NCBI GenBank assembly: GCA_947259865.1
Contig: CAMYNZ010000244.1
Coordinates: 1-5,849, forward strand
From: an uncultured Desulfobacterales bacterium
GTDB lineage: Bacteria; Desulfobacterota; Desulfobacteria; Desulfobacterales; G020354645
Direction of reading: 5' to 3'
Length of the DNA: 5,849 nt
Shown piece by piece: positions 1 to 5,849 of this stretch. The position numbers and the translations under genes are program-made. Within the stretch, counting starts at the first letter, position 1, and every line of letters begins with the position of its first letter. A model generated the notes under the pieces. The model saw only the letters and a program-made list of their open reading frames with translations. It made no database searches and was not told the origin of the DNA.

Positions 1-3
1 ATT

Positions 4-25
4 CAAGGGGTCAAGGATTCAAGGG
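4..25 (+). repeat. left arm of 22-bp inverted repeat bounding the IVP remnant
   Basis: This arm matches the reverse complement of 234-255 at 21 of 22 positions; the only difference is A at position 21 against G in the other arm. The arm is built from short direct repeats (TCAAGG and TTCAAGGG units). It may continue to the left of the window, since bases 1-3 are similar in character. The two arms bracket about 210 bp of AT-rich sequence that carries a protein remnant. Confidence 0.85.
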
Positions 26-223
26 TTTGTTTTCTAAAGACTTTCTCAACACCTTTAACCTTCTTTCGATTTCTGCGATGTTCTTTTTTAGTCTACCCTA
101 TACGCCTTTTTCAATTAAACCTAAATCCCCAGTTAATAGTATCTGCGTTGCCAGTTCGTAAACAGAACCATTATTTTGGTATGACTTTTGCGCGGCTTTC
201 AATTTTTTGTAATTCTTTAGCAT
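11..223 (-). pseudogene. internally deleted four-helix-bundle (23S rRNA IVP family) remnant
   Basis: Reading from ATG 223 gives 41 codons, then TAG (98-100), then 28 further codons in the same frame to TGA at 11-13. The first 16 residues (YKKLKxxQKSYQ) resemble the start of the four-helix-bundle / 23S rRNA intervening-sequence protein family (pattern like FRKLKVWQKAHQ). The next part (GSVYELATQILLTGDLG, then GRLKKNIAEIERRL) resembles that family's C-terminal half. The central portion, including the conserved SIPSNIAEG-type segment, is missing, an apparent in-frame loss of roughly 50 codons from a protein normally about 115-125 residues long. The TAG falls where the family commonly has a tyrosine (EExYxxL), consistent with a TAT/TAC to TAG mutation. 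The family match is from memory of the pattern, not a search. No function is expected for the product. Confidence 0.7.
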
Positions 224-233
224 TTCACTCGAA

Positions 234-255
234 CCCTCGAATCCTTGACCCCTTG
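234..255 (-). repeat. right arm of 22-bp inverted repeat bounding the IVP remnant
   Basis: This is the inverted partner of 4-25 (21/22 identical). It lies just upstream of the ATG at 221-223 of the remnant, so the repeat pair encloses the whole reading frame and could close into a long stem in RNA or single-stranded DNA. The opposite arm also supplies the remnant's final in-frame stop (TGA at 11-13). Confidence 0.85.
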
Positions 256-360
256 TACCCTCTGGGATCATACCTGCTAAACTGGAGATAACGGTTTATT
301 CGGTTTTAAATAACTACAACGAATCCGGACATGATCCACAAATATTAACTCATTTTGCAA
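256..360. other. AT-rich intergenic stretch with no gene
   Basis: Between the inverted-repeat element and the end of the phosphatase gene I see no credible reading frame and no clear terminator. A 7-bp inverted pair (265-271 and 331-337) is separated by 59 bp and is too weak to call a structure. There is no T-tract hairpin behind the phosphatase stop codon. Confidence 0.6.
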
Positions 361-1014
361 TCAAATCAATAGATCCAAAATCTCCAGGGGTCGGTCGATA
401 AGCACCCGGCAACCGTTTTTTTTCAACTCGTCAGCCGGGCGAAAACCCCAGCCGGCCCCCACCGGGAACATGGATGCCGCCAAAGCAGTCTTCATATCCA
501 CTGCACTATCACCGAGATAGAGAAAGTCTGGAGGGCGTAATTTCAGCCGCTTGGCCACGTCCAGTGCTCCGGCCGGGTCAGGTTTTGGGGAAACATTTTC
601 CCGCTGACCGAGGACAACCTCAAATTGCCAATTCGGCAGAAGTTCTTCAACGCAAATTTTTGCAAAATTATGCGGTTTGTTGGTTAATACCGCCATCTTG
701 ATTTTGCGGGCAGTCAAAGAATCCAGCAATTCCGGGATGCCTTTATACGGTTTTGTCTTTACATTCCAATTGCGGCTGTAGTCTTTGAGAAAGGCATCCA
801 GACAATCACCAATGATGTCTTTGTGGCGCTTATCTTCCGGTAAAGCACGCCTGATCAGCCTGGCGGCCCCATCACCGATAAAATAGCGATAGGAATCCAA
901 ATTGTGCCCGGGAAAACCGCTTGCCGCTAGCACACGGTTTACGGCATCAGCTAAATCTTCCAGGGTGTCGAGCAGGGTTCCATCGAGATCAAAAAGGATA
1001 GCGTTGTAGGACAT
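361..1014 (-). CDS. gph: phosphoglycolate phosphatase-like HAD hydrolase
   Basis: The 217-residue cytosolic HAD-superfamily phosphatase most likely removes phosphate from 2-phosphoglycolate or another small phosphorylated metabolite. Visible motifs: motif I FDLDGTLLD with nucleophile D9 and acid/base D11; a helical cap (about residues 15-85); motif II VLTNK (T111, N112); motif III lysine K144 in SPKPDP; motif IV GDSAVD with D169 and D173. Length fits the Gph group (about 210-250). The start is the ATG at 1012-1014, because motif I then begins within 10 residues as usual; an upstream GTG at 1126-1128 would add 38 residues encoded by palindromic repeat DNA. The ribosome site is weak (purine-rich AAAAGAAA). 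It stands alone, over 400 bp from mttB, and an A8 run (416-423) codes its KK near the C-terminus. The exact substrate is inferred from family resemblance; HAD specificity often differs. Confidence 0.85.
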   Translation of the reverse strand: MSYNAILFDLDGTLLDTLEDLADAVNRVLAASGFPGHNLDSYRYFIGDGAARLIRRALPEDKRHKDIIGDCLDAFLKDYSRNWNVKTKPYKGIPELLDSLTARKIKMAVLTNKPHNFAKICVEELLPNWQFEVVLGQRENVSPKPDPAGALDVAKRLKLRPPDFLYLGDSAVDMKTALAASMFPVGAGWGFRPADELKKNGCRVLIDRPLEILDLLI

Positions 1015-1449: not shown

Positions 1450-2940
1450 TTAGGCCACTTCCTTGGCTTTGCGTTCTTCTACCTCTTGTTCATATTCGGC
1501 GTAGATCCTGTCCAATTCTTTCTGGATTTTCTGGGGACGCGGTTCCGGTTTATAGTTTTCAAGAATATCGAGGGATTTCTCGTAGGCTACATCAACAATA
1601 TCCGGCGATCCGGCAGCTTCCCAGTTTTCCCGGGTGTCTCGATTCATTAATGTGGGGTGAGACAGCCGTTTAAAATTATTATAGGTATGTTCATGGGTGA
1701 TGAACTCACCGGCCGGTCCGACTTCCCTAATCACGTCCATGGCGATGTTTGCTTCTGAAACCTTGATGCCTTCAACGACCTTCAATACCATATCCAGGAA
1801 TTCGTTTTGCAGTATGGCCGAAGCATAATCCCAGAGCATCGCGCTGTCGAGCATCCCGACCCCGTAAATCAGATTGGCACCTGCCAATGCGGGTATAGTC
1901 GCGGTCAGGGTGAACTCGTGGGCGGACTGGGCATCGCAGTGTTTGCTGTCCGTCTACCCACCACCGACCCAGGAAGGCATTTTATAAAACTGGGCCAGTT
2001 TTGCCAGGGCAGCGCTGATCATGGCCATCTCCGGGGCACCCATGGCTGCCAGGGTGGTACCCATATCCATGATACTGGTGGAGCCGGCGTAAACCAGAGG
2101 AGCGCCTTTGCGAACCAGCTGTCCCAGGGTAATGGAGCCCAGTACTTCGGCGTTATGGGTTACCAGGGTACTGGCCAGGTCAACACAGGTCGTACCACCA
2201 GCCAAGCCCAAAGCATTGATTTTTACCGGAACACCAAACTTGCAGCATTCGATTAAAACGTCGGTGGCTTCTTCGGAGAGGATTAAGGGGCTGACAGGAT
2301 CGGCTGATGCGGTAAATAAGGGGCTGTGTCTGAGTTTATCTTCTCCACCGGCTATGACAGCACCCATTTTAACTGCCGCCTGGAAATGTTCCACGGTATA
2401 GATGCCCAGGAAACCGTGTTTTGAGGAATGGCTTAGATAGGCGTAAGTATTATAGATACTGGCCATATCTTCATCCAGATCACGCGGGGTCAGGGGTCTT
2501 TCCCAGCCGACAATATTGTCCAGTGTGTCAACAAACCGCACCGTATTGTCCACGTCTGCTTTGGTTGCCATTCTGGGCTTTCTGGTGACAGGATCCATCA
2601 AAGCCGGCGCTTCACCGAAGTTGACAAAACCTGTCCGGGTTCCCCCGACAACATAATCGTTTTCAGGATCAATAGCATGGGCCCGAAAAGTCGCCGGGGT
2701 GGAATGAATAGCATCCTCAACCAAATTGGGGGGAATTTTGACAATTTCGGTTTGTTTATCGACAACACATCCATGGTCCCCCAAAATATCTCTCGCATTC
2801 CGGCTTTTCACCTTGAGTCCGATATTCCAGAGAACATCAAGCGTTGCCGCATGAATTTGCTCCAGGTCATTGAGACTGAGCACATTTAACCCAAAGCTGC
2901 GCGCCTGGAGCATATTGGCATATTGATAATTTATAGCCAT
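1450..2940 (-). CDS. mttB: trimethylamine:corrinoid methyltransferase MttB with in-frame TAG (pyrrolysine)
   Basis: MttB transfers a methyl group from trimethylamine to the Co(I) corrinoid of its partner protein MttC, leaving dimethylamine; it is a cytosolic TIM-barrel enzyme. The frame runs from ATG 2940 to TAA 1450, 496 residues when TAG codon 329 (1954-1956) is read through, almost the same as Methanosarcina MttB (about 495 residues, Pyl at 334). The residues around the amber codon, WVGGG before and TDSKHCDAQ after, match the family's conserved active-site loop. Homology continues without frame change on both sides, e.g. NFGEAPALMDP at about 145-155 and GVGMLDSAMLWDYA beyond the amber. Start choice is supported by GGGAGGT at 2947-2953, six bases upstream. 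A TATAAC at 2963-2968 is a possible but weak -10 element. No mttC or pyl gene is adjacent. Standard annotation would split this into 1954-2940 and 1450-1887. A nonsense mutation is possible but unlikely given the exact position. Confidence 0.93.
1954..1956 (-). other. UAG codon predicted to encode pyrrolysine (Pyl329)
   Basis: The in-frame amber codon sits between WVGGG and TDSK, the Pyl position of Pyl-type MttB; Pyl forms an adduct with the methylamine substrate and presents it to the corrinoid. Reading continues 167 codons to a TAA. A 5-bp stem (CGGAC/GTCCG, 1948-1952 with 1923-1927) begins one base after the codon with a 20-nt loop, a possible local element, though such structures are not established as required for MttB. 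Confidence 0.9.
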
Positions 2941-2946
2941 GCTGTT

Positions 2947-2953
2947 ACCTCCC
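2947..2953 (-). promoter_or_regulatory. strong ribosome binding site of mttB
   Basis: GGGAGGT lies six bases before the ATG at 2938-2940. It fixes the mttB start and indicates efficient translation initiation, and supports an intact, expressed gene rather than a pseudogene. Confidence 0.8.
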
Positions 2954-3038
2954 GTATCTATGGTTATAAGAACCTACCTCAAAAATACGTCTAGGGGTCC
3001 AGTGCTGCGTTGCGGGCCGGCTCAAAATGTACTGCTCA

Positions 3039-3060
3039 TCCGCCAACGTACTCTGGCGGA
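3039..3060 (+). repeat. palindromic repeat, copy B (TCCGCCA...TGGCGGA)
   Basis: Identical to copy A (1069-1090) except for one central base (T for C). Here the CTCCGC extension is on the right, whereas copy A has GCGGAG on its left, so the whole extended unit is inverted relative to copy A. It lies about 100 bp upstream of mttB. Confidence 0.8.
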
Positions 3061-3088
3061 CTCCGCTTTTTCGCCATCCCGCGCTTTA

Positions 3089-3108
3089 CCCGCCGTTATT
3101 GTGGCGGG
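3089..3108. repeat. short GC hairpin CCCGCC/GGCGGG
   Basis: Perfect 6-bp arms (3089-3094 and 3103-3108) flank an 8-nt loop, next to palindromic copy B. There is no T-tract on either side. It resembles the CCCGCC/GGCGGG arms of the block at 1233-1300, so it may belong to the same repeat population. Confidence 0.5.
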
Positions 3109-3151
3109 CTTGCTCTGTACCCCGATCCACTATTTTTGACATAGGTTCAAG

Positions 3152-3227: not shown

Positions 3228-3992
3228 CTAACTTGAGAAATATTTGATCAATTGGTCAGCATGCAGGACACCATCAAACTCCAATGCTTTATGGGATTCT
3301 TTCAGCAGGCCTTTTTCGCCGTCCGGATCACCCAGGGAGGTCACCACAATTGAGGCGTCGCTCAAATCCTCCTGCTCGGTATAGATATTTGTGGTCGCAA
3401 CCGCTCTCAGGCCTGCTGCTTTGGCCGCCAGAATTCCGTTGCGTGAATCCTCGACCACGATACATTCATCGGCTGCCAAACCGGTTCTTTCCAGTGCCAG
3501 AAGATAGATTTCCGGATCCGGTTTTTTTTTGCTGACCACATCTCCGGCAAGAACAAATTCGAGATCGATTTCCCCCAGCATGCCTTTGGCAATGGCGTTG
3601 GCTGATCGTTCATTGGCGGTCGTACAAACGCCGAGGCGCAGGCCGGCACCCATGGCTTCCTTCATGAGCCTTTTCACGCCGGCCCTCAGGGGCAGTATAC
3701 CGCTTTCGACCATCTCAACAAATATGGCTGTTTTCTTCTTGTGAAGCGTCAACAGTAATTCGGCGTCTTTATCGGGGTCACCCTCAAGAATGATTCCCTT
3801 TTCGGTGAAATAATGGCGCATGCGCTCTTTGCCACCCGAAATAGCGAGCAATTCGCCATAGGTGTCAACGCTCCACTCGAAATCGTGGCCGAATTCTTTA
3901 AACATTTTGTTGAAGGCCACCCGGTGACCGTCTTTTTCGGTATCGATGATCACCCCGTCCTGATCCCAAAAAATGGCTTTTAATTCGGACAT
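3228..3992 (-). CDS. CbbY-like HAD-superfamily sugar phosphatase
   Basis: A 254-residue cytosolic HAD phosphatase of the CbbY / beta-phosphoglucomutase-like group. Motif I is FWDQDGVIID (nucleophile D10, acid/base D12). The cap carries DGHRVAFNKMF (21-31) and the SGGKERMRHY segment (52-61), the GGKxR signature of CbbY proteins. Motif II is CTTANE (T124/T125), motif III the KKKPDPE lysines (155-157), motif IV VVEDS (E181, D182). Characterised CbbY enzymes dephosphorylate xylulose-1,5-bisphosphate, a RuBisCO inhibitor; whether that holds here is open because no RuBisCO gene is in view. ATG 3992 has AGGAGG at 3997-4002. It is the third gene of the probable operon, 71 bp behind the aldolase stop. 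It ends in TAG, with TGA two codons later as backup. Nine A residues (complement of 3522-3530) encode the motif III lysines, a potential slippage or sequencing-error site, but the frame is intact. Confidence 0.88.
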   Translation of the reverse strand: MSELKAIFWDQDGVIIDTEKDGHRVAFNKMFKEFGHDFEWSVDTYGELLAISGGKERMRHYFTEKGIILEGDPDKDAELLLTLHKKKTAIFVEMVESGILPLRAGVKRLMKEAMGAGLRLGVCTTANERSANAIAKGMLGEIDLEFVLAGDVVSKKKPDPEIYLLALERTGLAADECIVVEDSRNGILAAKAAGLRAVATTNIYTEQEDLSDASIVVTSLGDPDGEKGLLKESHKALEFDGVLHADQLIKYFSS

Positions 3993-4063: not shown

Positions 4064-4939
4064 CTAGGCTTTTCCCGCTGAACCCAGCAAATCGATCCAA
4101 TAAGCCACTTTGGCTTTGATCGCCTCTTTGACGGCTATATCAATTTTGCCCGGGTTGTACTCGTCCCGGTGGGATGAAATATAATCATGGGTGGCGTCAA
4201 TCAGCGCGTGTTTCAAATCGGTTGAAACATTAAATTTTGACCCTCCCAGCGATATCAACCTTTTGGCTACATCCGGTTTGAGACCGGTGCCGCCATGGAT
4301 GACCAGGGGTATCCGGATCTGTTTGCCATTTATCAGTTCTGCTATTTGCTTTAGCCTGTCAAAATCAAGTTTGGGATCTTTGGTTTTGTAGACGCCGTGG
4401 GCGGTCCCGATGGCCGGTGCAAAGATATCTATCCCGGTTTGATCAACAAACTCCAGAGCCTGTTGCGGATCACACAGGGCCGCCTCGTCTTCCGCAACTT
4501 TGACCTGGTCTTCAACCCCGGACACCGTACCCAGTTCTCCCTCCACTGAAATACCCCCGAGTTTGTGGCAGTACTCGGCAATTTCCTTGGTTTGTTTTAT
4601 ATTCTCCTGGAAGTCCTGCTTTGAGGCGTCAATCATAATGTTGGTGTAGCCGGCATCAGCACACACTTTGCAATATTGAACATCACTGCAATGATCCAGA
4701 TGTAAACAAATGGGTATGGGTGCGGTTTCTGCCAGGGTTTTGAAAATAGCAGTCAGAACTCGCGGATTTAAGAATTTCGATGGCGTTACAGATGTTTGAA
4801 TGATTAAGGGCGACTTTTTCTCTATGGCCGTCTCAACCACCGCTTCCATCTGAATTAAATTGGTAATGTTAAAGGCGCCGACGGCATACTTTTCCTCGGT
4901 TGCTTTTAAAAGCATATCTTTTGCGTTTACGATCGACAT
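4064..4939 (-). CDS. class II (zinc-dependent) ketose-bisphosphate aldolase
   Basis: A 291-residue cytosolic TIM-barrel aldolase that cleaves or forms a ketose (bis)phosphate using dihydroxyacetone phosphate and an aldehyde. Visible signatures: CLHLDHC with catalytic D82 and zinc ligand H83; MIDAS (102-106); SVEGELG (131-137); zinc ligands H181 in GTAHGVY and H215 in VIHGGTG; and the phosphate-binding NVSTDL (237-242). Length and residue positions match the GatY/KbaY/bacillary FbaA type (about 285 residues) rather than the 358-residue E. coli FbaA type. Fructose-1,6-bisphosphate and tagatose-1,6-bisphosphate cannot be told apart here, and other aldehydes are possible. Start at ATG 4939 is chosen for its AGGAGG at 4945-4950; a GTG at 4979-4981 would add 14 residues through a hairpin. 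It sits between the aminotransferase and the CbbY-like phosphatase. It ends in TAG; reading through would add 28 residues to a TAA at 3980-3982 inside the next gene. Confidence 0.9.
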   Translation of the reverse strand: MSIVNAKDMLLKATEEKYAVGAFNITNLIQMEAVVETAIEKKSPLIIQTSVTPSKFLNPRVLTAIFKTLAETAPIPICLHLDHCSDVQYCKVCADAGYTNIMIDASKQDFQENIKQTKEIAEYCHKLGGISVEGELGTVSGVEDQVKVAEDEAALCDPQQALEFVDQTGIDIFAPAIGTAHGVYKTKDPKLDFDRLKQIAELINGKQIRIPLVIHGGTGLKPDVAKRLISLGGSKFNVSTDLKHALIDATHDYISSHRDEYNPGKIDIAVKEAIKAKVAYWIDLLGSAGKA

Positions 4940-4960: not shown

Positions 4961-4993
4961 GGGTAATCGCCTGGGCAACACCCGGGATTATCC
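4961..4993 (-). promoter_or_regulatory. intercistronic hairpin at the aminotransferase stop codon
   Basis: In the minus-strand RNA, GGAUAAUC pairs with GAUUACCC at 7 of 8 positions; above it CC/GG and GGG/CCC pairs close a UGUUG loop with a small bulge. The structure contains the aminotransferase UAA (4988-4990) and ends about 10 bases before the aldolase AGGAGG. There is no T-tract, so it is more likely a processing or translation-tuning element than a terminator. Confidence 0.5.
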
Positions 4994-5849
4994 AAAGTAA
5001 TTTTTTATAAATTTTAAAAATCTTTCGTTTTCCTCGTCGACTCCGGGCGTTACTCTGAAATAACCGCTTTTGCCGTGGATTTCCCCGATTCTCTTGAGAT
5101 AAATCTTTTCCATATCGATGGCCGCATCTAAAATCTGCGCCGTGGTTTTACCGGTCATGGTTGCATCGACCAGCATGTAATTGCCGTGGGCTTTATACGG
5201 TTTAAGGCCCAGTTTCTGAAGCTCTTCATAAAAAATGTCCATCCAGCGGTTATTGTGCGCCACCTTGGCTTGAATTTCCTCGGGATTATCCAGGATGGCC
5301 TCTGCCGCTGCGGCAGACATCAGATTCACGTTCCAGGGCAGAAACATGGTGTTGAAGGCTTTGATCATTTCTTCGGTTCCCAGCACATAACCGAATCGGA
5401 TACCGGCAAAGCCATGGGCTTTGGACAACGTAACCGACAAAAATACCTGGGGGTATTTCTTGATCAGCGGCGCTTTGGTTGAAAATTCTGGATGATAGTC
5501 CCGGTAGGCCTCATCAACACACAGAGGAATGCCTGTTTCGCAGAACCGATCCAAATCAGCATCATCGATGAATACACCGGTGGGGTTGTTGGGGTTAATA
5601 ATCAAAATTAATTTCGTTTTTTCATTGATTGCATTGAGCATTCCTTCCACATCATACTGAAGATCGCCTTCCCGCAAAGGGATTGAAACAACCTTTGCCC
5701 CGCACAGCTCAGCTCGAGGTGGAAATAAACCGAACGTCGGTGTGGACATGATGATCTCATCGCCCGGCTGCAAAAATATTCGCATCATGGAGTCGATAAT
5801 TTCCGAAGATCCATTGCAAAGGGCCACATTATCCGGACCCAGATCATAC
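4988..5849 (-). CDS. HisC-type class I/II PLP aminotransferase (5' end outside window)
   Basis: A fold-type I pyridoxal-phosphate aminotransferase; 286 C-terminal residues are visible and about 70 N-terminal ones are beyond the right edge (the frame is open through 5849, so the GTG at 5827 is internal). Landmarks in order: CNGSSEIID (cofactor phosphate region), the PTFGLF segment, NPNNPTG, the cofactor-binding DEAY, the Schiff-base lysine in LSKAHGFAGIRFGY (codon 5420-5422), and the substrate-carboxylate arginine in GYFRVTPGVDEEN. The SKAHGxAGxRxGY and C-terminal pattern is typical of histidinol-phosphate aminotransferase relatives, a group that also includes enzymes for aromatic amino acids, threonine-phosphate decarboxylation (CobD) and other phosphorylated substrates. 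The lack of other his genes and the aldolase/phosphatase neighbours suggest a non-histidine role, but this is inference. It is followed after 48 bp by the aldolase and is probably co-transcribed. Stop is TAA. Confidence 0.88.
   Translation of the reverse strand, partial: YDLGPDNVALCNGSSEIIDSMMRIFLQPGDEIIMSTPTFGLFPPRAELCGAKVVSIPLREGDLQYDVEGMLNAINEKTKLILIINPNNPTGVFIDDADLDRFCETGIPLCVDEAYRDYHPEFSTKAPLIKKYPQVFLSVTLSKAHGFAGIRFGYVLGTEEMIKAFNTMFLPWNVNLMSAAAAEAILDNPEEIQAKVAHNNRWMDIFYEELQKLGLKPYKAHGNYMLVDATMTGKTTAQILDAAIDMEKIYLKRIGEIHGKSGYFRVTPGVDEENERFLKFIKNYFG

Follow-up and report, generated by a model that had tools for sequence, protein, structure and literature searches.

A conserved RNA hairpin downstream of the in-frame amber codon in a divergent clade of putative pyrrolysine-containing MttB-family methyltransferases

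We analysed a 5,849-nucleotide stretch of DNA (the window) from an uncultured Desulfobacterales bacterium, which carries on its minus strand an mttB-family gene of 496 codons (1450..2940). The frame starts at an ATG that follows a ribosome-binding site, GGGAGG (2948..2953, minus), at a distance of 7 nt, and runs to a TAA stop; its sole interruption is a TAG at residue 329 (1954..1956, minus), flanked by WVGGG and TDSK. An initial annotation made from the letters alone had described this frame, its ribosome site and its single TAG without giving a strand. Translation of the minus strand bears out both the frame and the position of the interruption. The same annotation had placed the TAG at the established pyrrolysine site of MttB, and this also holds: the TIGR02369 model (pyrrolysine-containing trimethylamine methyltransferase) matches residues 16–482, spanning the TAG, with 573 bits against a cut-off of 525, and residues 11–480 of the read-through protein align with M. 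barkeri MttB such that the TAG falls in the pyrrolysine (X) column of 7xcl. Sequence similarity to 7xcl settles the predicted fold, and the window protein resembles the TIGR02369 family and the M. barkeri structures (7xcl, 7xcm) in fold family, position of pyrrolysine, activating Gly and Tyr residues and similar length.

Upstream of mttB, and likewise on the minus strand, lie three genes that are conserved as its neighbours: a HAD-family phosphatase (3228..3992), a class II fructose-bisphosphate-aldolase-like gene (4064..4939) and a HisC-like aminotransferase (4988..5849), the 5′ end of which is cut by the window. A phosphoglycolate-phosphatase-like HAD gene is found downstream (361..1014, minus). 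Both the aldolase gene and the upstream HAD gene end in TAG, apparently as an ordinary stop, indicating that TAG is not globally reassigned; the L002 copies of both have TAA at the same place, and the HAD gene ends in TAA in L002–L004.

The amber codon of mttB is kept in relatives: a scan that took one genome per species gave 11 related loci, and all 11 have the TAG in this column. Among the matches listed, 71 of the 72 nearest protein clusters (P0122–P0193, at least 70% identical, among the best 120 listed from a large protein collection) stop exactly at the position before the TAG, the exception being a partial record, and 65 of the 72 are 328 aa long. The databases therefore carry the N-terminal fragment, as foreseen by the suggestion that gene callers would split this gene. 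Differences from the nearest relative number 27, 10 and 105 at first, second and third codon positions before the TAG and 12, 5 and 46 after it; since substitutions are concentrated on third positions on both sides, the downstream part appears to be under protein-coding selection, and with the TAG retained at all 11 related loci the earlier view that this is not a decayed gene is upheld. Relatives were sampled in a phylum draw of 198 genomes, in which G001 alone matched at E 1e-150, and a class draw of 389 genomes, which gave nine genomes with the window clade or its sister; the family of G001 consists of one genome. One scan of viral contigs found no relatives, and in 191 plasmid records every best match was <60% identical.

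The nearest relative (G001, the closed chromosome CP070652.1) encodes a protein 90% identical to the window MttB and has a complete pyl set comprising tRNA-Pyl(CTA), PylSc, PylSn, PylB, PylC and PylD, located ~180 kb away from its copy of the window-type mttB. PylSc scored above its cut-off in eight of the nine genomes behind the first loci and in two of five additional genomes, a third having an incomplete match at the end of a contig, and tRNA-Pyl-like DNA was found in nine of the 12 genomes searched. Contig G004:C42 has two tRNA-Pyl matches ~1.3 kb apart, one full and the other confined to the first 41 bases (95%). The assignment of pyrrolysine to residue 329 of this bacterial MttB-family enzyme is well supported by sequence comparison, and from its relatives we infer that pyrrolysine insertion and corrinoid methyl transfer take place in the window organism. 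The initial reading of pyrrolysine in a bacterium thus stands, with the correction that marine Deltaproteobacteria, the same bacterial group, are already in print as pyrrolysine users with pyl machinery and an amber codon in MttB, the pyrrolysine lying at position 327 of 485 (PMC8318568, abstract and part of one section); neither a separate paralogue clade nor an mRNA hairpin is mentioned in those parts of that paper.

Comparison of MttB-family proteins within and between genomes placed the window gene, by sequence, in a Pyl-MttB clade that is divergent and does not include the highest-scoring (canonical) mttB of the same genomes. The nine genomes searched contain between 6 and 36 TIGR02369 matches each, mostly without a TAG; TAG copies reach 778 bits, and window-like copies score 564–583 bits. 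In a 40-row tree the window clade (9 rows) is split off by a 100/99 branch with a long stem and has a TAG-bearing sister row with 100/100 support, while identity to the Bacillota Pyl-MttB of the scan is ~44%. Equivalents of Pyl334, Gly110 and Tyr364 are present in all nine clade rows, the latter two acting in activating pyrrolysine according to the accessible part of PMC9842639. In contrast, the clade has its own pocket and corrinoid-contact residues, all nine rows differing from M. barkeri in C219 to D, M249 to L, A331 to G and G372 to A. G372 of the M. barkeri enzyme touches the corrinoid; C219, a residue that the text of PMC9842639 does not name, probably belongs to the pocket lining, judging from its location at a strand end. 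As the gene is a divergent paralogue and not the canonical mttB, trimethylamine is unproven as its substrate, and of the original description as a pyrrolysine-containing trimethylamine methyltransferase the first half stands and the second becomes tentative. Some TAG-less MttB paralogues (L047, L064 and relatives), found beside Pyl mttB in G001 and G002, also exceed the Pyl-MttB cut-off with ~600 bits, so the equivalog model alone does not show pyrrolysine.

The HAD, aldolase and aminotransferase genes keep their order beside mttB in L001, L004 and L075, and L002 has all three in a different arrangement. L003, which is a short contig, also has the HAD neighbour, and L074 has the aminotransferase. 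At least one of the three lies upstream in six of nine related genomes. The conserved neighbours were not found at L008, and L005–L007 carry a different aminotransferase beside mttB. An alanine dehydrogenase gene is also located beside mttB in L002, L004 and L075, and a GntR regulator in these three loci and, as a fragment, in L001. The downstream HAD gene was matched by BLAST in L001 only among L001–L011, and an ORF resembling it was recognised by eye downstream in L075. No corrinoid protein turned up among the five window proteins that were scanned, a further difference from the M. barkeri system, although such a gene nearby is not an absolute requirement; beside L005 there is a corrinoid-protein-like ORF that scores short of the family cut-offs, and both L006 and L007 have homologues of it. 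In four of four genomes the aminotransferase stands as a paralogue alongside a true HisC, and the aldolase is the sole strong class II copy in three of the four checked and may accordingly be housekeeping. Three intergenic parts of the window (1-260, 1050-1350 and 3030-3125) contain repeat-like or inverted stretches visible by eye, for example around ‘ccgccaacg.actctggcgga’.

The initial annotation, sound on the gene and the site, had overlooked a conserved feature 3′ of the TAG. At 1873..1888 (minus), 66–81 nt past the TAG, the mRNA can form a hairpin with a 6-bp stem, AUUGGC/GCCAAU, closed by the tetraloop AGGU (1879..1882, minus; AGGN in relatives). The consensus in mttB is (G/A)UUGGC-AGGN-GCCAA(C/U), the last base of the 4-nt loop being free. 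It is written in the codons of the segment P-A-L-A-G-A-N, which read GCR TTG GCA GGN GCC AAY, and the loop A, a synonymous site, is A in 87% of 54 TAG-containing rows. None of these codons is a favoured one, TTG making up 19% of leucine codons in these genes and GCA and GCC 20% and 44% of alanine codons.

Codon identity at invariant residues rises sharply just past the TAG, and a permutation profile located the synonymous constraint more closely, in groups that were hand-picked from the available rows with the near copy L007 left out. For the window clade (10 rows) it peaks at +23..+37 codons with z 6.7, a value reached gene-wide in 0 of 500 permutations, and for 11 Desulfobacterota mttB at +16..+30 codons (z 5.2, P 0.028). 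A sister group of four gave z 4.3 with a gene-wide P of 0.074, which is not significant; in the permutation profiles a Bacillota group of five had no peak in the hairpin region, and in a TAG-less group of four the constraint was significant nowhere. Pooling all 36 TAG-containing mttB rows gave z 4.5 (P 0.036), with a second peak at -3..+11 codons (z 4.0, P 0.07). The choice of codons for PALAGAN, which is to say the hairpin sequence, is the cause of the constraint peak.

Presence of the hairpin follows presence of the amber codon. The exact core was found in 45 of 54 distinct TAG-containing mttB regions and, as read from the listing, in 0 of 37 TAG-less rows, several of which are weakly aligned (scores 61–123); when only genes that encode LAGAN are compared, it occurs in 45 of 47 with a TAG and 0 of three without. 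The nine TAG-containing genes that lack it, five rows of Bacillota genomes together with L042, L054, L057 and L059 from the Desulfobacterota side, imply that the hairpin is not required, and three other rows of Bacillota genomes (L040, L045, L052) have it. A genome-wide search for TTGGCAGGNGCCAA in 14 genomes gave 51 matches, of which 46 lie in TAG-containing mttB (35 assigned by checked 23-codon spacing and 11 placed by coordinates), four lie elsewhere and one falls in an mttB whose upstream part is masked; the same pattern reversed gave two matches in these genomes.

The outer pair of the stem covaries. It is G-C in 27 rows, A-U in 15, G-U in two and U-U in one, with A-C in none (Fisher 5.9e-10 over 44 rows, a value that ignores kinship), and in a tree of 52 of the 54 rows the A-U state requires eight changes, five of them forced by well-supported branches. 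By corrected mutual information over 53 rows the outer pair ranked 2 of 15,576 column pairs and 1 of the 2,233 that pair in at least 80% of rows, a cut adopted after a first one of 85% had missed it (it pairs at 84.9%); other high-ranking distant column pairs look like shared ancestry. Among 1,962 local hairpins tried, the three best paired are all parts of this helix. Paired cells amount to 93.5%, and none of 500 shuffles matched the hairpin on paired cells, double-changed cells or covariation; two of five measures were not above shuffles, the number of pairs with double changes being reached by 99 of 500 and the number of pair types by 104 of 500. Slid versions of the hairpin pair in at most 54% of cells. 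RNAalifold applied to the 54 rows returned three inner pairs of the helix and nothing else. Folding energies were unremarkable for the window (z -0.63) and one other mttB (z -1.23). A larger RNAalifold fold around the TAG, obtained from ten clade sequences, consists mostly of invariant pairs and is hence not claimed. Overall there are strong signs, from comparative sequence evidence, that selection has preserved the hairpin as an RNA fold across the majority of the pyrrolysine-coding mttB genes analysed.

The same 100 nt of the gene (1857..1956, minus) match Rfam RF02510, PYLIS_3, with 63 bits against a gathering score of 38, yet the pairs drawn in that model leave out the hairpin described here. 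Over 54 rows the drawn pairs are formed in 73.6% of cells versus 73.9% in shuffles, and 198 of 500 shuffles attain their covariation. RF02510 also gives 57.9 bits, above the gathering score, to a TAG-less paralogue (L009, 10356-10455), which indicates that the model follows coding sequence and not the element. Both archaeal mtmB PYLIS (RF01982) and bacterial SECIS resemble the present hairpin in concept, that of an RNA element serving a recoded stop in cis. SECIS lies directly 3′ of its codon (PMC8211752, seen in part), in contrast to the 66–81 nt that separate the mttB hairpin from the TAG. According to the accessible part of a 2010 review (PMC2933860) the first mttB genes likewise showed the mtmB-type element, and the mtmB PYLIS was found not to be essential; as far as can be told, that earlier archaeal element differs from the mttB hairpin, the two being set apart by description only. 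A 2013 study, in the part available, reported no significant structure in mttB, and the titles and beginnings of abstracts among the papers listed from the PYLIS and pyrrolysine literature, with subscription journals mostly outside their coverage, contain no description of the mttB hairpin. What is known already comprises bacterial pyrrolysine, Rfam coverage of both this stretch and the corresponding one in mtbB, and a drawing of the mtbB hairpin; that of mttB is not drawn in Rfam.

The dimethylamine methyltransferase gene mtbB, which is non-homologous to mttB, was analysed in the same manner, using 24 and 37 rows picked by text pattern and 48 TAG-containing rows by alignment. Synonymous constraint peaks at +17..+31 codons (z 5.2, gene-wide P 0.088, 24 rows), and a hairpin with the core NGCCGG-AGAU-CUGGUN′ lies 72–87 nt past the TAG. 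Across the 48 distinct TAG-containing copies all six pairs form in 39, five in eight and four in one; the outer pair takes six pair types and is a standard one in 42 of the 48. Covariation was 0.236 compared with 0.082 in shuffles (37 rows), and the loop A, again a synonymous site, is A in 48 of 48 TAG-containing rows. This is essentially the 3′ hairpin already drawn in RF02509 (PYLIS_2, mtbB), which resembles the mttB hairpin in place and loop but belongs to another gene family and has AGAU in place of AGGN. In both families it is selection on synonymous sites that makes the hairpins visible. The only TAG-less mtbB that we met (L208, G550:C365:2100-3600) scores over the family cut-off, has TCG (Ser) replacing the TAG and keeps the hairpin; a tRNA-Pyl match lies on the same contig, and recent loss of the TAG or a sequencing error would fit.

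Whether an mRNA signal aids the reading of UAG as pyrrolysine has been debated for about two decades, and the mttB hairpin may be one of these long-doubted signals. We propose that UAG 329 is decoded by tRNA-Pyl charged by the split PylSn/PylSc, which would give a full-length, corrinoid-dependent MttB-family methyltransferase whose pyrrolysine, by comparison with relatives and with the solved M. barkeri enzyme, would activate a methylated amine so that its methyl group can pass to a corrinoid protein. The mRNA 66–81 nt past the UAG would fold into the short AGGN-capped hairpin retained by selection; this element most likely raises full-length yield at the UAG in cis, with a mild effect and without being obligatory. 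Taken as a whole, a pyrrolysine-decoded enzyme with a selected hairpin that raises its full-length yield and a substrate that is perhaps not trimethylamine, this explanation seems to us probable, and for the hairpin in particular a role in pyrrolysine decoding is plausible. A more ambitious idea, which we put forward tentatively and with more doubt than belief, is that the two gene families share a common bacterial cis element, a 6-bp hairpin with an A-G-purine-N tetraloop ~66–87 nt past the UAG, which would have arisen separately in mttB and mtbB and be recognised in trans, raising the reading of UAG as pyrrolysine over termination. Yeast Rnt1p is one of the double-stranded-RNA-binding domain proteins that bind AGNN tetraloops, and this points to a possible trans factor. 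If such an element exists, bacterial decoding would be partly gene-marked and not plain amber suppression; with two unrelated pyrrolysine gene families each having a covarying hairpin at a near-equal distance past the UAG, the question is directly testable.

Against a decoding role counts the distance, for the hairpin is well past the mRNA entry site of the ribosome when the UAG is in the A site. The same distance favours the idea that the hairpin is a real RNA structure serving another purpose: it might govern how stable the mRNA is or how it is processed (by RNase III, for instance), pause transcription so that polymerase and ribosome stay coupled, or bind a protein. AGNN-type loops in both gene families, a type that dsRBD proteins bind, and the single TAG-less mtbB that retains its hairpin would be at home in such a scheme, whereas the way the mttB hairpin tracks the TAG (45 of 54 TAG-containing versus 0 of 37 TAG-less rows) and the similar hairpin at a near-equal TAG distance in non-homologous mtbB are harder to accommodate; we hold it to be a serious possibility, though not the expected one. 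That the repeated stretch is instead a DNA inverted repeat, such as a regulator's operator, or was spread by gene conversion is very improbable. The mttB core is indeed nearly palindromic as DNA and common to paralogues within genomes, but G-U occurs at the mttB outer pair and inside the mtbB stem in 37 of 37 rows (there with letters fixed by amino acids), same-genome paralogues differ by compensated double changes (for example in G001, G002 and G004), and mtbB is non-homologous with a hairpin sequence of its own. Scarcely credible is the view that the locus is decayed or split and its TAG either a genuine stop or an error: TAG does look like the ordinary stop of the window's aldolase and HAD genes, but at this site it is conserved in all 11 loci and, judged by length, in 71 of 72 protein clusters among the matches listed, coding selection continues past it, and the nearest relative has the full pyl set.

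The substrate is less clear-cut, and there is close to an even chance, if slightly less, that the window gene encodes an ordinary trimethylamine methyltransferase and that its neighbours are housekeeping genes adjacent by history. The equivalog cut-off of TIGR02369 is exceeded, the aldolase may be housekeeping as the only strong class II copy in three of four genomes, and L008 and L005–L007 do without the window-type neighbours. It is at odds with the long, well-supported (100/99) stem of the clade and the four replacements shared by 9/9 rows, with an aminotransferase that is in 4/4 genomes a paralogue next to a true HisC, and with neighbours that remain clustered in L001, L004 and L075 and persist, if rearranged, in L002. 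Retention of upstream neighbours in six of nine genomes suggests that the substrate may not be trimethylamine, and the differences in active-site and corrinoid-contact residues, combined with gene neighbours of its own, hint that it may be another methylated amine; the neighbours could possibly form a dedicated pathway for it. A dedicated phosphonate- or sugar-amine pathway was considered and set aside, as two GntR regulators scored below the PhnF cut-off and the aldolase is maybe housekeeping in three of four genomes. Three methylated-amine substrates of pyrrolysine enzymes are known, and a clade of this kind hints that there may be more. Matches to the mtmB family numbered 15 (L215–L229) in eight of 14 genomes, with an in-frame TAG in G007:C233 alone and no stop inside the match in the others; these TAG-less copies are perhaps akin to the non-pyrrolysine MtmB homologue named in the title of PMC13044021.
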